Position numbers and translations under genes: made by a program. From Branchiostoma floridae (taxonomy: Eukaryota > Chordata > Leptocardii > Amphioxiformes > Branchiostomatidae), in the NCBI RefSeq assembly GCF_000003815.2, contig NC_049979.1, positions 12,376,766-12,440,765 of the forward strand: 64,000 nucleotides of DNA, read 5' to 3'. Below the pieces are notes generated by a model. The model was not told the DNA's origin and did not search any database. It worked only from the letters and a program-made list of their open reading frames with translations. Shown here piece by piece: positions 554 to 55,817 of the stretch (position 1 is the stretch's first letter; the number at the start of each line of letters is the position of its first letter).

Positions 554-27326
<26,773 letters not shown>

Positions 27327-42300: not shown

Positions 42301-42692
42301 TCGACCTCATGAGAACGTACCACTTGATTGCAGGGTGGTAAGAACAAATCGTTCAGTCTAAAGTTTAAGGTTTGTTTATAGGATTTCTTGGGGTTACAGC
42401 TTAATAGTCCTAAGTATTGATAATGACACCACTTACGGCCGAGCGTGTGAGCGGGTGATTTATTTTTATTACTATTTGTGAATTTGCCTAGCCCCTTTGT
42501 CCCAAATGGTGAAGTCTGCTGAACAAAGCTTGCGTCATTGTTGACATACTAGCACTAATCTCCAAGCAGATGTAAGTATTGAAGAGCCGTTGAAAATGCA
42601 ATACTACTTGTACTAGTAAAGAGTTTCAAATGTTGCAAAACATGCGTAAGGCACAGGAAATGAGTCGGATCCTTACATATGCCCGGTACAGG

Positions 42693-43212
42693 TAGCGCCA
42701 TAGCCCTTTTCAAGGCCGAGGGGGCAGTGGGTTGTCATCCGGAGTAGAGTAGAGTAGAGTAGAGTAGAGTAGAGTAGAGTAGAGTAGAGTAGAGTAGAGT
42801 AGAGTAGAGTAGAGTAGAGTAGAATAGAGTAGAGTAGAGTAGAGTAGAGTAGAGTAGAGTAGAGTAGAGTAGAGTAGAGTAGAGTAGAGTAGAGTAGAGT
42901 AGGGTAGGGTAGGGTAGAGTAGAGTAGAGTAGAGTAGAGTAGAGTAGAGTAGAGTAGAATAGAATAGAGTAGAGTAGAGTAGAGTAGAGTAGAGTAGAGT
43001 AGAGTAGAGTAGAGTAGAGTGTGTCAAGGGCACGGTATTAAGTGGCAGACCACAAACCCTTAACTCCCGTCCCGTTTTACCTCCCCAACTGAAGTCAGGT
43101 ACCCATTTGTACACCTGGTAGGAGTGGGGAAAGTCGTGTTAAGTGCCTCCATTGGAGCACAAGATCGGTAGCAAGGCACTTAGACAGGATGCGAACCCAG
43201 GACCTCTGACAA
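42693..43212. repeat. SINE-like dispersed repeat, copy C, split by a microsatellite
   Basis: Both halves match copies at 10185 and 12385: GGGGCAGTGGGTTGTCATCC before, and GTGTCAAGGGCAC plus ACCTCCCCAACTGAAGTCAG after the 280-bp AGAGT array. Confidence 0.8.
42742..43020. repeat. (AGAGT)n pentanucleotide microsatellite
   Basis: About 56 units with rare AGAAT and AGGGT variants. The frame stays open on the minus strand, giving a spurious Tyr/Ser/Thr/Leu repeat ORF. Confidence 0.97.
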
Positions 43213-44147: not shown

Positions 44148-47100
44148 ATGATGCCATCCTGTGACTGTGTGGATGGAGACCTTCTGGTCGTCAAGGCCGT
44201 CTTCTTCTTCTTTTTCTCCGGTAGGTGAAAAGTTTTTCTGGCAAGCACGGCGCTTATCTTAGATAACGTTAAAGATCATCTGATATATTTGCTTGTTTTC
44301 AGAGAGACATCAAAAGAATTTCAGTATCTCTTGAAACCCCTCCGGTTCTGTTTCAACAAGACGTACATTTGTCGAAATCACATGATTCATGATATTCTAT
44401 ATACTGATACGATACTATACTATATCATAAGAGACGAACTAATATCGCACACTGAGCCTTTTCATGATATCTGGACAAGTTCAGTTTCAAAACGTCTTAA
44501 ACTGTATTCGTGCCTGTTTTGTCTTAAGCAGCATGCTATCATTGACTTCTATAAAATTGAAACTATTGAATCCGCATGTTTTGTTGCTGCAGGGATGGCC
44601 TGTGTCTCCCCCTACATGTCCATCTATCTGAGATACCTGGGACTCCGCCCGTCACAGACCGGTGTGATCACTGCTACTAAAAACTTCATGTCGGCCATCA
44701 TCAAACCCCTTCTGGGCAGTATAGCAGACAAGACTGGGAGGTGAGCGTGTGTATGCATGTTTGTGCGTGCGTGCGTGCGTGTGTGTGTGTGTGCGTGCAC
44801 ACGTGCGCGCGCGCTTTTTGTGTGTGCGTGTGTGTGCGCGCGTGTGTGTGTGCGTTTGTCTTTTTGTGTGTGTGCGTGCGTGTATGCGTAAATATGTGCG
44901 TGAACGTATGTAACGTTATACATGTGCGTGTACCGTGTGTGGGTACATGATGTGGTGTTATGTGATTGTGTATCATCTCTACCAAATTGCAAATTGTCCC
45001 CTGCACTAACCCATACCACTATACGCAGGCCCAAACTAGTGGCGATTCTGACCGTCCTGGCAGCTTCCGCCCTGCACTTCTCGCTTCTGTTTGTACCGCC
45101 CGTGACGTCACCAGCTGGGCCACAAACCGTCCAACACCAGAGACGCCATCAGGAGAGAGACAACCACACGAAAACAACCTGTCTGCTACCAGGCGAGGTC
45201 GCCCGTGCGATGGACTTGCGAGGTGCGGAAGACACGCAGTCGTTCTTCTCGCTGACGTTCTGGTTGGTCTTCTGGATCATGTTCACCTCTCACGGTGCGC
45301 AGTGGAGTTCAACTTCACAGGTAAGGACCTGGCCACACGCGTCGTACGATCATAGTCTGCTCATTTTCATCGTACGCGTTGTACTCAACTTACGGCTGCT
45401 CGCCGTTATTTTCAAGATCAATACACTATATTAGTAGCACGATCAGACTGCACACCGGTCCCGCTTGAATTTGCACATACGACAGAAGTACGGCAGTTGT
45501 CGCCAGTGCAGGTTAAAGCTCCTAGCTCATGATAACCGATTCCTGTACAAAGTCTCTTATGTTCTCCACCACGCATCCCTCTGTTTTCTTCGAGGGAATA
45601 AGTTCTATATACAAGGACTACTGCAATTGATATAACGTCTATTCCATGTAAACTTCGCTTAATTGAGATACTAGCCCCAGCGTCTAGTCAAGTAAAGTAA
45701 AAACACGTATAGCATTTATCTCTCCATAGCCGCTTTCAAGAAGGTTGAGTGAGAATAAAGGATCACAATTCCAAACGGATTCATCGGATGTGATTTTATG
45801 ACTTTCTTTCAGGTGGAGGCGGCAACTTACCAGATCATCAAGGAGAAAGGTGGTCCTACATTCGGACGACAGCGTCTGTGGGGATCCATGGGGTTCGCTT
45901 TGCTTTCCCTGCTCTCCGGGATCGCCATGGATACGTTCACTGTAAGCACCGGACTGGACAACCCGAACTATTCCGTGACCTTCTACATGTTTCTGGCCTT
46001 CATGGTCGTGGCTTCGGGTTTCCTGTTCGTCTTGGATGACTGGAGCACGGGGCCATCGGTAAACTTGAACTTACTTAAACTTACCTAAGCTCACTTAAAC
46101 TTACGTAAACTTAAACTTACTTAAACTTAAACTTACTTAAACTAACTTAAACTTACTTGAACTTACTTAAACTTAGCCCTTAAACTTACGTAAACTTAAA
46201 CTTACATGAACCTAAACTTACTTAAACTTACTTGAACTTACTTTTATCAAACATCAAAATAGCAGCACATGCTACTCAATGTGGACAGAACAGCGTGCGT
46301 TGATTTTTGTTTACGGAGTAGATCGAAAGTATTTAAACACAACTGATGCTTATATAAAATCTAAAACGTTACATACATATAAACAGATACTCGGGCAGCG
46401 AGCGTTGAACAGTACAGCATTAATATAGGCTTGTAAGGTCTCTAATAGTCTCATGACAAACGAATTTCTATGTCCGTTAGTCCGACTGGGTGAGTAGGTG
46501 CTGTACATTCCTATGTCTCAGGCTGTATCGCAGGCGTTCCTCTCACCATGTAGGAAGAAGACGTTAGAGGGGTATCATAGAATCCCTTTCAGTTCTCTTA
46601 ATGAAACCCCTCTTTTACTAGGTAGCGTTCCTGGACGGCGTGGGCAAGCTTCTCTCTGAACCCCACCTTGTGATTTTCCTGTTCGCCGTTATGTGGCTGG
46701 GCGCGTTCGACGGCGCCGGAGACACGTTCATGTACTGGCACCTGAAGGACCTGGGGGCCAGTCAGACCGTCATCGGTATGTAACAGTGCTCTCTAAAGCC
46801 CCGGTCACAAGAATCGTACGATTGACTGCGATGGAGGTTTTATGCGCGGCATAAGCGCAGTACGTCGTAAGTCGGGGAAGAATCGGAAGCAATGGTTTAA
46901 ATATATGAATCCGTGGTCACAAGAATCGTAGTGCATCGTACGATGAGGTCATAAGAGCGTACCTGCGTCAATCGCAGGTAAATCATAGTAAATCGGGGAG
47001 CCTCCTATGACGAAAATAGAGCTGAAATGGATTTTGAACATGTTCAAAATTTCGCTATCGTCGTAAGATTTTATTTGCCCCCAAAGCAGACTTCATTACG

Positions 47101-49860
47101 GCAATTTTTGTCTACTGATGAGGTTTTAGATTTATGAATTTTTAGCATGTTGTGATGGTTTCAGTTTTCCTTGATATTGTCGATATTGACGAAAAGGGAA
47201 AATATATCAGTCGCAACTGCCACAGTCGCAACCAGAGAACAGCGCGCCCCGCACAGGTGATGCAGACAATTGTTTGATCGTTTCATGCACGTGAGTTTAT
47301 AATTAGATCAAATCTCAGCTCTCGTCGGTCTTGGGTCAGTTTACCATAATCGTAAAAACCATGGGGACAACTCAAACATAAAGGCAGGCTCTATGAGTCG
47401 GAAATATATATGATATAATGCTTATGATATGATTTTTGTATGATGGCATCTTTTTGTTGATAGCATATCATGATACGATCTTCGAAAGAGCCTGACACGT
47501 ATAGCCGGCAAGCAGGCCGAGATAACCATACCAGTACTCACGCTTGATTTGTTTGAACTTTTGCTTGTAATACTCTTGTTGTCATGGTCTTTTTTAATTC
47601 ATTTTTACAGTTAAAGATATTATAGGAAGGTATTCAGCAGCGATGTCCACATTTTGTTGGTTAAAGAAGCACAAAAACGGTCAGACGGCTATACAGAAGA
47701 GACACAAGTGAAAAATCGTACGACGCTGGAAAAATTTTGAACATCATCCGATGCTCTGCGATGGCTGATTTTGCTTACGATTTAGCTGCGATCCACTGTG
47801 ATCATCGTGCGATAGGCGTAATATGCCATCGCAAGGACGTCGTACGATTCATGTGACCGGGGCTTAAAAGACTGACTACGCTGGCTATTATAGGGGAAAA
47901 AATTGCTAGGGGAGTTTTGCTACCAGAGGAGTTGGTCGGCCTCGCCAGCCAGGAACCTTAGCGTGGGCTGACTCCTCTGGCCAATTTCCCGATTTTTTAT
48001 TTTTTTTGCCGAAGTCTACGATCCCCGCACCCCCGTAGGAAGGCTTGGTGGAGGCTAATGTAACAGTGGGGTTCAAGCGCCGCCAAACTGACCACTGTCT
48101 GTCCCTTTTGGCGTAACGGTTTAGCGGGTTGGGCTTGTGATCTGGCGGCACGAGTTCGAATCCAGGGAGTCAGGAGAGTGTTTGTACTCGTCTTTGTGTT
48201 TCAGGTATCAACATGTTCGTCAGGACTGTCACAGAGGTCCCGCTGTTTCTTGTCTCCGGGTGGTTCATAGACTTCATCGGACACGTATGGGCCCTGCAAC
48301 TCAGCTTCGTGGTGTTCGCTCTCAACTTCTTGGGCTACTCGCTCGTACAAAACCCGTGGTGGGCCGTGCTGATTGACGTCATACACGGGTACCAGGCGAT
48401 CACGTGGGCAACAGCGACGTCATACGTGAGCATCTCTGCCCAGGATGACCTCCAGGCCGTCGCTCAGGGAATCGTTTCCGCAACTTTCTACGGACTGGGT
48501 GAGAGCATATATCACTAGTGGTGGATCGAACGAATGTTTTCCGTAAGGATCGTATGCTTTTCTTAAGAATCGTATGTTTTAAGCTAACGTCACATTTCCA
48601 CGAAGTGACCCGGCGAGCAGTTTCGGGGATACAAAAAAGTCGACATGAAAGACAACAAAACATAAAACTAACCAAGAATAATTCAATAGCATGCATTGTG
48701 CATATTTATTGGCATGTAATTTTTCATTTCCGCAAACAGTCCGGTCGGGTCCCAGGTAGGAAATGTGACGTAGGCAGTAGTGGATCGTATGGATTCCATT
48801 ATCGTATGAAGATGCTTGAATAATACAAAATTGGTCAATCAAGGCTGCAAACTTTGCCAGAGGAGTTGGACGGCCAAAGAGCTACACATTTTCGGTAACA
48901 AATGTGTGGCTCCTATGCGGTCGGCTAAGTGGTCGGTTAGGCAAAACGCTGTCTTCTAAAAATCGCGAAGGACCAAAAATGGTCGTCCGTTGAGCCGACG
49001 GTCGTCCTGTGACGGTCGTATTTTACTGTATTTGTCTAGCAATGCAAATCATCTGATAGAGATTACGAATATTCACATGGAACATTTGACCTATCCGCAG
49101 GGTATGGTGTAGGGAACCTGGTCAGCGGCCCGGTATTCCACTACTACGGCGCCGTGGGGCTCTTCCGATCGCTGAGTGTCTGCTGTCTGATCGGATTCAT
49201 CATGTTCTACCTGTTACATAGGTGTTATGGGAAGAAGGGAGTCTGCACAGGTGAGAACACCTTTGTGATATGTATAAGTATCGGAAACTGTAATGTTAAC
49301 CCGAAACGTAGGGTCTGCCAACGGGTCTGTAAGACAATAATCATGACTGACACACGCATTTTGTTGAACATCTAAACTACACTGGAAGGACATCTCCGCA
49401 TGGACGGCTGGAATTTGATAGGAACTTAAATTGAAATTGATCGTTTTGCAAGTTCAACTTCACATAATACAGCTGTGAAGTAAGATAACAAGAACCTAAT
49501 CTTCTTTGTCATGTTTGGTTGACTAATGTTAATGATTTGTTGTATAATTGTTGGTTTAGTTCAAATTACCCACTGTACAACTTTGCATAATTCAGGGATC
49601 GAGGCAAAATTCATTCGACATGCATGTGAGTTTGTCGTTTAAATAAATGATATAAATATAAATGTATGAATATCTTTTCTACACGAGACCCGGACACAAG
49701 GGGAGGAGTGGAAACAGGACCGATGCTGAAGCCTGACGCCTTTCTGCGCGGAGGAAGAGTGACTACCGGGACGGGCGAGACGCTGGGCTCCCTACGCATC
49801 GTCAGACCACAGCTCAACCAGTCTGGAAAAGGGAGCAGACACGTGCATTTCTCTCAATAA
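44148..49860 (+). CDS. MFSD6-like major facilitator superfamily transporter
   Basis: Predicted multi-pass membrane transporter, 509 residues, in 8 exons: 44148-44220, 44593-44740, 45029-45320, 45813-46058, 46622-46775, 48205-48498, 49101-49250, 49688-49860. All joins are GT-AG and in frame. The start is the first of two adjacent ATGs ([21 protein letters not shown]), directly before TM1. It has the MFS loop 2-3 region ([11 protein letters not shown] then SIADKTGR), a long polar loop in exon 3, and the MFSD6-typical [11 protein letters not shown] block after it. The C-terminal half has [10 protein letters not shown] then [11 protein letters not shown]. Human MFSD6 is 791 and MFSD6L 586 residues, so the protein is compact. 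The substrate is unknown. The last exon (49688, acceptor ACACGAG) is polar, cytoplasmic-looking and the least certain. It is convergent with the deiodinase gene. Confidence 0.88.
44745..44895. repeat. Imperfect (TG/CG)n tract right after an MFSD6-like exon
   Basis: The tract begins at the splice donor of exon 2 (44740|GTGAGCGTGTG) and continues for 150 bp, a potential Z-DNA former. Confidence 0.85.
46059..46240. repeat. ACTTAAACTT minisatellite adjoining a splice donor
   Basis: Repeats of ACTTAAACTTACTTAA and variants start at the exon 4 donor (46058|GTAAAC) of the MFSD6-like gene. Confidence 0.9.
46797..47864. mobile_element. 1.07-kb inverted-repeat element with TAA target duplication
   Basis: AGCCCCGGTCAC and, after a short interval, GAATCGTACGA at the left are inverted at the right (TCGTACGATTC, GTGACCGGGGCT). 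TAA abuts both ends (46794-46796, 47865-47867), as for PIF/Harbinger elements. No ORF. It lies in intron 5 of the MFSD6-like gene. Confidence 0.85.
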
Positions 49861-50934
49861 CAGGACAACAGCAAAGAAAGCAAGGAAGAACTCACGATAA
49901 CTCTCCTTTCCTCCAAAAGTTCATTAATGGATTGAAGCGAATATCGTCGTCGAATCCAATATCCATTGATTTTGTTACCTTGGGAAAGGCACTTGACACG
50001 AATTTCCTCTCTTTAATCGGGTGAAAAGGAACACCTAGCTTCGGTAATATGACGCTAAATGGAGATCCCGTGTTTGAGGAGAGCCACACCTAAAGCACGT
50101 AAAAGAACAGGGTCCTTTCCGGTGTGAGTGGATAAAAGAAATCTGTCCGGTTTGCAGCTTGGACTTTCAGGTACAAACTTAGCGTGTTACGCCATTAGGC
50201 GGTTTACCGGGCATGTAATATACTGACAAACAAATAAACTCTAGTTTAGACTCTCGTCAACGCAGATCTTATAGAGCAGATACCGAGGTACTAACATGTG
50301 ACAACCATCGATCAACCAAACGTAAAAGGACCTTCACTATTTAGTATACTAAATTTTGATTATCAAACTATTGTAACATATTTCTATGTATCAAGAGGGA
50401 CGCACGTCTCACGGTGTGTACCATGTGCGCATATGCTTAGACCGACTCTGTGAAAAGTATAAAAGAAATATCTAATCTGTGACTGCATTATCGTTTGTTT
50501 CAACTTACTAATGAAAGCTTAAATCGGCCTGCAGGCCTTTTTTTTCCATTGAGTGAGGAGAGAGGCAAGGGCCTGACTATCATCCGAATAAGATTTCATC
50601 TGAAGAAAATACAAGTTACAGAGATACAGATCTTTTAAGTCCTATTCAATCTTTCAACATACATCATTACATATACAAGGTACAAAACACATAGTAGAGC
50701 AAAAAGCTATTTCATGGTTCGTGTCCGTTCGTTTTCATTATTGCTATTACTTCAAGAGTTGATTGTGAAATTAAGTATAGCACCACACCTTTACCTTACA
50801 ACAGCATATAGTAAAAAAAGAAACATCGATACAGTTGTCTTACTTCAGCATCCGTGACTGAATATATTCATCATAAGTTCAGCAGCAAAATTGCAATCCA
50901 GAGCGAAGCCAAGGCGGATCGTGGTGGTCTCGTT
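49861..50934. other. Convergent 3' region of the MFSD6-like and deiodinase genes
   Basis: No gene seen. AATAAA at 50233-50238 may end the MFSD6-like mRNA. A SINE-tail-like stretch (CCTTGGGAAAGGCACTTGAC) lies near 49978-50000. Confidence 0.5.
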
Positions 50935-50980
50935 CTCAGGTTCTCACCAGCGCCCTGTGCGTTTCCGGCGAGACCATCAT
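50935..50980 (-). promoter_or_regulatory. SECIS element of the deiodinase mRNA
   Basis: Read on the minus strand from 50980: ATGAT, then stem GGTCTCGCCGG, then the apical segment AAACGCACAGGGCGC, then the returning stem TGGTGAGAACC, then TGAG. The stem pairs about 10 positions with one bulged A and two G-T pairs. This gives the canonical ATGA/TGA quartet and the apical AA. CGC and GCG can pair inside the loop, as in form 2 SECIS. It lies about 500 nt after the deiodinase stop, a normal SECIS distance, and would recruit SBP2 and EFsec for Sec insertion. The motif is seen directly; function is inferred. Confidence 0.85.
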
Positions 50981-51025
50981 GCTGTCTCACTACGTACCCG
51001 ACATGACTTAACTCCTGCTGTCACC

Positions 51026-51055
51026 AGACAGAAAATGAGCATTTCCTGTCTGATT
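51026..51055. repeat. Tight hairpin in the deiodinase 3' flank
   Basis: AGACAGAAAATG and CATTTCCTGTCT pair over 12 bp with a 2-base loop, between the deiodinase stop and its SECIS. Confidence 0.75.
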
Positions 51056-51477
51056 TGCAATATAATCTCCTGACGAAAAAGAAGTGATATGAAACATCGT
51101 TTTGAGACAATATATCCCATTGTTTTGATTTTGAAATGAAATGATTCCCATGATAGGCACCCTGGTCAATCAGGAACTTTTGCGCAACAAAAAGAAATAT
51201 ACACTGTATGATAACTGAATAGATTTGAGTGAAGTATGCTGATATCATATGATGCGTTAACGTTACCTCGTACAAACATTGTGCTCAGTCATTCATCAAT
51301 ACAATTCATCCGGAATGTCCTTCAATAGGCTTTGCTTTTTGAAATGAATCTTCAAAATATCTTGCCAAGTACAATAAGTATTTATCTTAGACGAAAATGA
51401 TCTAACATAGCAAACTGAAGGATGCCTCCCAAGCAAAAACAACAACAACAACAACAAAAACACTACGCCCTTCTGTT

Positions 51478-51679
51478 TTATCCAGAGAATTTCTGCAGCC
51501 AGTCACGGACTTCCTCCGGGAGGTAGCCAACCGGACCGGGCTCGCCCTTGTAAACACACACCCCGTCCAACACGATGTACAATCTGCAGGGGGAAGAATG
51601 AGAGAGAAATAAGACAAATAACGAGGAAATTGAAATTCGTGTTATCAACATGATTCACTCCTCCGTGTTGTTGTTTTTC

Positions 51680-51719
<40 letters not shown>

Positions 51720-51743
51720 GCTTTCTTTCTTTCTTTCTTTCTG

Positions 51744-51786
<43 letters not shown>

Positions 51787-52563
51787 CTCTCTGTCTCTCT
51801 CTGTCTCTCTCTGTCTCTCACGGTCTCTCTCTGTCTCTGTCTGTCTCTCTGTTTGTCTCTCTGTCTGTCTCTCTTTCTCGGCAACTCACCTGTCCGGGAT
51901 CGCTGCATAGGCCCGCGCGGCGGCGTTGTCCATGGTGTCCACCAGGATGGGGCAGGGGATGTCGTGCAGAGCCAGCATCTCCGCCGCCGCTAGTCTCTCC
52001 TCCAGACTCCGGTGCTGCTTGATGTCCATGTTCCCGCTCATTGCCCAGCCGTCCGTGGGGTGCGCCTCGGCCACGTACACCACCACGAAGTCGGCCACGG
52101 CGGCGAAGTCCGACATGATCTGCTTGACCATGTCCAACTTCGCCCGGAACGGCTGTCAGGTGTTGCTGCCGAAGCTGATGACCAGAGGGCGGGCCGCCCG
52201 GGCGAACTGCAGCAGCCGGCAGGAGCTCCCGTCTAGCCTGACCAGGGAGGGGTCGGCGGCCTTGCCTCCCGCGAACACCTCAGCCTCCAGGTAGGACATC
52301 TCCATGGAGATCATTCCTTTCCACGCAGCAAAACTTGTCATGTCGTACAACTCCTGGTAGCACTGCTCAGGAGTCGTCAGAACTCCTGGAGCCACACTGT
52401 CGGCTTCTCTCATGTATAGAGACAAAATTGGTCGCCTGAGAGCCGGGAGGAGGCATGCTGTCCTTGCTAGTACAGAACAGACAAAGAAAAGCGGCGTTCC
52501 CAAGACACAGAACAGCAGGAACCGCACACCGCTCCAAGCGCTTTGTATAAAGGTGGAGGCCAT
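51478..52563 (-). CDS. Iodothyronine deiodinase (selenoprotein, TGA = Sec)
   Basis: Removes iodine from thyroid hormones or related iodotyrosine derivatives; a thioredoxin-fold membrane enzyme. Two exons: 52563-51890 and 51583-51478, joined AG|A to give 259 residues. An N-terminal hydrophobic anchor is visible (VRFLLFCVLGTPLFFVCSVL). The in-frame TGA at 52156-52158 is codon 136, in the context ISFGSNT-U-QPFRAKLDMV, which aligns with the deiodinase active site (GSCTU or GSATU in vertebrates). Downstream, the motif EAHPTDGWAM (E166, H168) and the C-terminal RLYIVLDGVCVYKGEPGPVG are deiodinase hallmarks, so the TGA is selenocysteine and not a stop. The length fits DIO1 and DIO2. Position -2 from Sec is Asn instead of Cys or Ala, and Pro after Sec is replaced by Gln. 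Which vertebrate type it equals cannot be assigned. Confidence 0.95.
51674..51870. repeat. (TTTC)n then (TCTCTG)n microsatellite in the deiodinase intron
   Basis: About 27 CTTT units followed by CTCTCTGT units, ending about 20 bp from the donor of deiodinase exon 1. Spurious ORFs run through it on both strands. Confidence 0.97.
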
Positions 52564-54071: not shown

Positions 54072-55817
54072 ATGGCGAGGTACGTCTGGATAGTTCTCCT
54101 CTGTGCCCTGATCCTCCCGCTGGGCTGGACCAAGAAGGAGATCCCAGAAGACAAGAAGATGAAAAAGGACCTGCGGGATTACACGGACGCTGACTTGGAG
54201 CGGCTGTATGAGCAGTGGGAGGAGGTAAAAACAATCTCCCCAATATATTTGATAATTTCTTAAACCCTTAAAGGCATACTACGCAGTTTTTTGCGCTCAA
54301 ATTTGAAATATTCTAGAATTAAGAAATATCAGATTTACTACTACTTTTTGTCACTTTTTGACACTTTTGTGTCATTATTTCACGTTTGCAACGTAAAGGA
54401 TTAGCCTACAAACATTCCGCTCTAGGCACCCTGTAACCTTGTGTCCCCCCAAGTTAGACCCTACAGGTCTTGCTTGCCACCAGTAGGTCCCCCGGGGTGG
54501 GGTAATCAGTTAGCACATGCATGGCAGACTGCAGATAAAGAACACAATGGAGATCTTCTTTGGAAACACCTATATCTAATCATTCTAAAATAGCATATAA
54601 TCATGAACTTATTAGTCTATTTTGTAGGATATCAACAAGCTAAGGTCATATTCCCTTCAAAACTGCAAGAAACCTTGTACAGAAAGCTAGTCTACTGTAC
54701 TCAGAGGAACTGTCAACTGGCCCCCCACTGGGAAGCCAGGCTGATAAGCAAGAAACAACAACACACAGAGGCAGTAACCAGCCTGTGCCCATCTGTTTCT
54801 TGGAAGATCACAATTTTTATACATCATAATGTGGTGCATTGATGTCGCAGCATCTCTCCATGAATATTGGTATGCAATGCTATAGGGTTGATTGAGCTAA
54901 CAATGTAAAGAAAAAGTAGCAAAAGCTACTTTTTGTTTTGTTCAAAAATCCCGTAGTATGCGTTAACGTTATTCATTTGTACACACCTATTGTCCCAGGC
55001 AAAAAAATGCTACATGCCTCCCTTCAGCACATCATTAGCACAGTCCCGACTGCTGCCTACCTGTGTCAAACTTCTGATGTTAAAAAGTACCATGAAAAGC
55101 CATTATTGTCCCCTGTGGTAGCCTTTTATATCTCATATGTTCAGTTCATAATCCACATAGCATGCTTATCACTTTCTATATAATGTATAACAAGTGCTTT
55201 CTTCTTATGAATGATAATTAAGATGAATTTTTATTAGTATAAAGGAGGAGGCCCCCCTCCCGCATATGTTTTTATTGTTTATTGAATTATGTCATTTCTT
55301 CCTTGTTGTGCAAATGAATGAAAAACACAAGGATGAGGAGCCACTGGAGGAGGATGAGCTCCCAGAACACCTCCGTCCTGCCCCGAAGATCGACCTGTCC
55401 AACCTGAACCCAGACAAGCCGGAGGATCTCCTCAAGATGAGCAAGAAGGGTCGGACCCTGATGATGTTCGTCTCTGTGTCCGGCAGCCCCACGCAGAAGG
55501 AGACCGAAGAAATCACCCAGCTGTGGCAGTCCAGCCTTTTCAACGCAAACTACGAGGTGACCCGGTACGTTGTGTCGGACGACCGGGTCATCTTCCTGCT
55601 GAAGGACGGCAGCAAGGCGTTCGAGATCAGGGACTTCCTGGTTCAGCAGGACCGCTGCGCTGAGGTCAGCTTCGAGAACCAACAGTTCCCCGGAAAGGGC
55701 GCCCCACAGGGAGAGGAGGGAGACAACAACAGCGCTCAGACCAAGAGCAAAAAGTCATCCAGTAGCAAAGGGAGTGGTGACGAAAACAAAACAAAGAAGA
55801 AGAAAACAGAACTATGA
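54072..55817 (+). CDS. MESD: MESD, LRP-receptor chaperone (mesoderm development)
   Basis: ER chaperone that folds the beta-propeller/EGF modules of LDL-receptor family proteins, including LRP5/6 of the Wnt pathway. Two coding exons, 54072-54224 and 55332-55817, joined in phase 0 (EQWEE|DEEPLEEDELPEH), 212 residues; human MESD is 234. A signal peptide (MARYVWIVLLCALILPLGWT) is followed by the conserved DLRDYTDADLERLYEQWEE. The core domain contains MSKKGRTLMMFVSVSGSPT, LWQSSLFNANYEV and DFLVQQDRCAEV. The tail is Lys/Ser-rich and ends KTEL, a KDEL-like ER-retrieval signal. An AG acceptor at 54041 and a GT donor at 53587 suggest an untranslated first exon near 53460-53586. The intron holds a TTAA-flanked element. 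Confidence 0.96.
54268..54966. mobile_element. TTAA-flanked inverted-repeat element in the MESD intron
   Basis: GGCATACTACGCAGTTTTTTG near the left end is inverted at the right (CAAAAATCCCGTAGTATGCG). TTAA lies at 54268-54271 and 54963-54966. No ORF. It has a different terminal sequence from the 7981 element, hence a second TTAA family. Confidence 0.82.

Follow-up and report, generated by a model that had tools for sequence, protein, structure and literature searches.

On the minus strand of the window, i.e. the whole 64,000-nucleotide stretch of DNA analysed here, lies a gene that very probably encodes an iodothyronine deiodinase selenoprotein, anchored in the membrane and acquiring selenocysteine (Sec) at its active site by SECIS-directed insertion. 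What can be read directly in the DNA is the open frame, the protein family, the position of an in-frame TGA and a SECIS-like hairpin downstream, from which we infer that the transcript extends past the SECIS, that Sec is inserted, that the protein is membrane-anchored, and that it is an active enzyme with the substrate proposed below. The gene itself is confirmed as real and as an unexceptional representative of a familiar enzyme family.

The predicted product of 259 residues is encoded by two exons on the minus strand. Coding exon 1 (51890..52563, 674 nt) runs from the ATG at 52563 through an N-terminal hydrophobic segment and a catalytic domain with the in-frame TGA (52156..52158, codon 136, predicted selenocysteine) and terminates within codon 225 (Arg), while coding exon 2 (51478..51583, 106 nt) lies inside the Pfam match described below and closes with a TAA at 51480-51478. 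From the ATG at 52563 to the TGA, the open reading frame has exactly the 135 amino acids given in the preliminary description. The exons are separated by a GT-AG intron of 306 bp (51584..51889), some 200 bp of which are microsatellite (tandem repeats at 51674-51879), with a GTGAGT donor after 51890 and the acceptor CCCCTGCAG before 51583. They join in frame into 260 codons, with TGA at codon 136, TAA at codon 260 and no other stop. The splice is deduced from the consensus sites and from homology. R225-L226-Y227 is restored at the junction, and the intron call is supported by the match of these residues in the bacterial relatives (R in 80/80, L in 68/80 and Y in 79/80 of the best 80 of 244). 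Of the remaining two frames in the segment from TGA to donor, one lacks stops and the last contains two; since a second frame is open as well, openness is weak evidence in this stretch and it is the homology that decides.

That homology is provided by a single match to Pfam PF00837 (T4_deiodinase), which spans residues 24-257 and profile positions 13-236 of 237 (E 3.4e-59, 200.5 bits for a cut-off of 27) and crosses the TGA as well as the splice junction, so that homology and frame extend 123 residues beyond the TGA. A PDB search with the product of exon 1 yields two distinct sequences, Dio2 (9h48) and Dio3 (4tr3, 4tr4), with 48% and 44% identity, respectively, over the aligned catalytic region. 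The TGA aligns with the catalytic position of these solved chains, where Cys is found. Both the assignment to the deiodinase family and the placement of the TGA at the catalytic residue, as put forward in the preliminary description, are borne out by the Pfam and PDB matches. Within the 64-kb window, tblastn returned no second deiodinase besides these exons, the next match having E 1.9. At the N-terminus, the 19-residue hydropathy peak of 2.43 over residues 15-33 fits an anchor, as judged by hydropathy only; in the available text of PMC8699336, the N-terminal anchor region is apparently missing in the non-vertebrate chordate proteins considered there.

The active site reads GSNTUQPF, with Asn134 at position -2 and Gln137 at position +1 of the Sec. 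Vertebrate Dio2 and Dio3 share the catalytic position and the EAHPxDGW motif with this gene but display GSAT-x-PPF and GSCT-x-PPF, respectively (x being Cys in the solved chains). The bacterial relatives differ as well, since F or Y occupies -2 in 75/80 and P or G occupies +1 in 77/80, Asn at -2 and Gln at +1 each being encountered in 0/80 of these best 80 of 244 rows and in neither of the two PDB chains. The Pro at +2 is retained, as in 78/80 bacterial rows and both PDB chains; a Pro at this position accompanies low propylthiouracil sensitivity.

Bacterial relatives were collected by scanning genome contigs with two patterns, which gave 265 pattern matches and 244 relatives, of which the best 80 were examined. 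At the Sec column, 61 of these 80 carry TGA and 19 Cys. The sample is biased by its own construction: part of residues 166-173 is prescribed by one pattern (EAHP[ST]DGW), and Cys at the Sec position by the other. Every one of the 61 stops there is a TGA, the Cys codons being TGC (16) and TGT (3). No further stop interrupts the aligned region in 60 of these 61 loci, the remaining one having four stops. The TGA in these relatives may be taken as an independent sign of Sec at the same codon in the deiodinase gene. Residues Y163, E166, H168, P169, D171, G172, P223, R225, G232, G241 and P242 are each present in 80/80 of the best 80 of 244; conservation from E166 to G172 is partly by construction, EAHP[ST]DGW being a search pattern, and P223, R225, G232, G241 and P242 lie outside the search patterns and still reach 80/80. 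Records with TGA at the column are titled Planctomycetota, Verrucomicrobia, Chloroflexi/SAR202, Acidobacteria and Gammaproteobacteria, among others. In bacteria, Sec insertion relies on a hairpin within the coding region. Rfam at the gathering threshold gave 0 matches in 10 of the 80 bacterial loci. Among viral contigs five stretches fit a pattern and 0 proved to be relatives, and plasmids gave 0 matches. Deiodinase-like selenoproteins of bacteria, from the same Pfam family (pfam00837), have already been published, as the available part of PMC9312934 attests.

Downstream of the gene and on the same strand, a form 2-like SECIS-like element (50927..50990, minus) emerges from the Rfam SECIS_1 model, from folding and from shuffling. 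Its motifs are AUGA (50980-50977), AAA (50964-50962), a CGC/GCG mini-helix and UGA (50938-50936), the AUGA sitting about 498 nt beyond the TAA. In the predicted fold, the upper helix has AUGA facing UGA at its base and, above these, the unpaired AAA on the 5' side, and the form 2 mini-helix with its 5-nt loop belongs to the minimum-energy fold in 6/6 contexts. Across these six contexts of 64 to 1078 nt, the mean pair probability of the upper helix and mini-helix is 0.93-0.94, and the weakest single pair has 0.48-0.49. A larger stem enclosing the element (50900..51015, minus), with helix I beneath an internal loop (12 nt per strand), folds at -44.1 kcal/mol (z -2.32, 4/200 shuffles equally good); by itself, the 64-nt element is just slightly more stable than its shuffles (z -1.56, 15/200 as good). 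The form 2-like SECIS announced in the preliminary description some 500 nt past the stop is thus recovered with its AUGA/AAA/UGA hairpin and mini-helix, and so is the quartet on which that reading hinged, AUGA lying opposite UGA. A rival helix pairing GGUCUCG with a downstream CGAGACC was considered and rejected, its mean pair probability being 0.000 in all five contexts, of the six, that contain it.

The Rfam match to SECIS_1 (RF00031) covers the full model, 1-64, at 23.1 bits, below the gathering threshold of 35. Over 4227 families, the E-value is 0.21 in the 2.4-kb stretch (2401 bases) and 5.7 in 64 kb, which, divided by the number of families, corresponds for SECIS_1 alone to about 0.00005 (2.4 kb) and 0.0013 (window). 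On the minus strand, no Rfam match in the 2.4-kb stretch ranks above it; 12 other matches in that stretch, all under gathering and several over the intron microsatellite, were discarded, and at the gathering threshold Rfam gave no match in the whole 64-kb window. As a null, the 1-kb UTR was dinucleotide-shuffled 2000 times, and 20 shuffled windows were added, read on both strands with 200 N removed. An ATGA/AA/TGA hairpin of any stability appeared in 119 of the 2000 shuffled UTRs and 92 were counted in the 20 shuffled windows, with 0 at -17.6 kcal/mol or better in either set. In the real window, the ATGA motif-plus-fold scan yields 50980 as the sole strong candidate, beside weak ones at 14428 (plus) and 44701 (minus), both at -6.7; allowing GTGA at -9 or better adds 34340 (plus, -16.1) and 34578 (minus, -9.8). 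With GTGA-type hairpins elsewhere in the window, the motif alone is therefore not unique, and position and strand matter. A search of the 1-kb UTR for a second SECIS found one place only.

According to the available text of PMC8481496, the 3' side of the SECIS core is KGAW. Here the 3' side of the quartet is UGAG, in which K, G and A fit and the last base is G rather than A or U; as UGAG is off the strict consensus, the claim is limited to a SECIS-like element with probable SECIS function. The departures at both the active site and the quartet could be joined in one reading, i.e. a Sec-deiodinase whose altered rim GSNTUQPF is tuned to a substrate other than T4 or T3, for instance a TRIAC-like one, and which is served by an atypical UGAG SECIS; this is conceivable but rather unlikely. 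The same two departures, along with the sub-gathering SECIS_1 score, speak for a decaying copy, in which the TGA once encoded Sec and the gene or its SECIS is now non-functional; the invertebrate selenoprotein clusters of PMC3473315 include, in the part available, incomplete or SECIS-less genes. Against decay stand the 260-codon frame, with one TGA and 0 other stops before the TAA, its GT-AG splice sites, the conserved residues of the catalytic domain and a hairpin predicted in all six contexts tried, which together make a decaying copy quite improbable. Slightly less credible still is that translation really ends at the TGA, or that a sequencing mistake has replaced a Cys codon, the hairpin being coincidental: Cys forms do exist in the family (the 19/80 bacterial rows among the best 80 of 244) and the available portion of PMC8699336 refers to an amphioxus deiodinase that is no selenoprotein, but frame and homology run on for 123 residues after the TGA and an equally stable hairpin with the same motifs arises in 0/2000 UTR shuffles.

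For the functional selenoprotein deiodinase, the favoured reading, the SECIS in the 3' UTR would recruit the eukaryotic Sec insertion machinery, which consists of SBP2, eEFSec and tRNA-Sec, and the UGA at codon 136 would be read as selenocysteine. The resulting 259-residue product would be held in the membrane by its N-terminus. Deiodinases are thioredoxin-fold enzymes, and the selenolate of the Sec would strip iodine from iodothyronines or similar iodinated molecules. While the understanding of Sec insertion is unchanged by this gene, it supplies one more sequence for the question of deiodinase roles before vertebrates, and the Asn and Gln beside the Sec constitute a testable variation.

This course of events supposes that the SECIS is included in the deiodinase transcript. 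The minus strand was scanned from 51480 to 48500 for eight variants of the poly(A) signal. No AATAAA or ATTAAA separates the stop codon from the SECIS, the weak variant GATAAA alone occurring there, at 51386; beyond the SECIS come AATATA (50868), ATTAAA (50017), AATACA (49032), AGTAAA (49027) and AATAAA (48710). An early transcript end, before 50980, which the preliminary description held to be contrary to its reading, is hence not indicated by the canonical signals, GATAAA at 51386 notwithstanding. On the plus strand, exons of an MFS_1-like gene (44229-44744 and 48141-48518) are arranged tail-to-tail with the deiodinase.

Deiodinase selenoproteins are not new to the species. The available text of PMC3473315 counts nine Branchiostoma floridae deiodinase (DI) selenoproteins, in totals that include several incomplete genes; three of them form the cluster Bf.DI_a-c, and Bf.DI_b has two downstream SECIS elements. 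These are likewise invertebrate Sec-TGA deiodinase genes, with SECIS downstream in the case of Bf.DI_b, and the present gene could be identical with one of the nine, or orthologous to one. In contrast to that cluster of three, as described there, the 64-kb window harbours a single deiodinase, and in contrast to the two SECIS of Bf.DI_b, one candidate is found in the 1-kb UTR. The present gene, carrying a TGA, also differs from the non-selenoprotein amphioxus deiodinase reported in the accessible part of PMC8699336 as inactive on T3 and T4. Also in print are the cloned Mytilus coruscus McDx and McDy cDNAs (258 and 242 amino acids), which in the available text of PMC8481496 likewise combine a Sec-TGA with a 3' UTR SECIS, the core of the latter being UGAN/KGAW as against the UGAG on the 3' side here. 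The non-selenoprotein deiodinase of amphioxus, unlike the present gene, is a Cys form.

Elsewhere in the window, two mir-92-family hairpins were noticed on the minus strand at 23783-23862 and 23897-23971, with 43.0 and 28.7 bits, both below the gathering threshold of 47, and fold z-scores of -8.28 and -2.04. They lie between two same-strand open reading frames that carry portions of MCM5, the OB-domain at 25050-25394 and the P-loop at 20970-21362. The vertebrate mir-25 cluster, of the 92 family, resides in an intron of MCM7, and an MCM5 host is curious for this reason; a literature search on amphioxus mir-92 together with an MCM7 intron found nothing. Upstream of the deiodinase and divergent from it, a MESD chaperone exon is found on the plus strand at 55227-55817 (PF10185, E 2.1e-59), and a MYND-family match figures among the neighbours in the window. 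Together with the deiodinase intron, these MCM5, MESD, MFS_1-like and MYND matches point to an animal origin of the DNA. Finally, a long simple repeat at 42673-43138 on the minus strand is read in two overlapping open reading frames as (TLLYS)n-like stretches.
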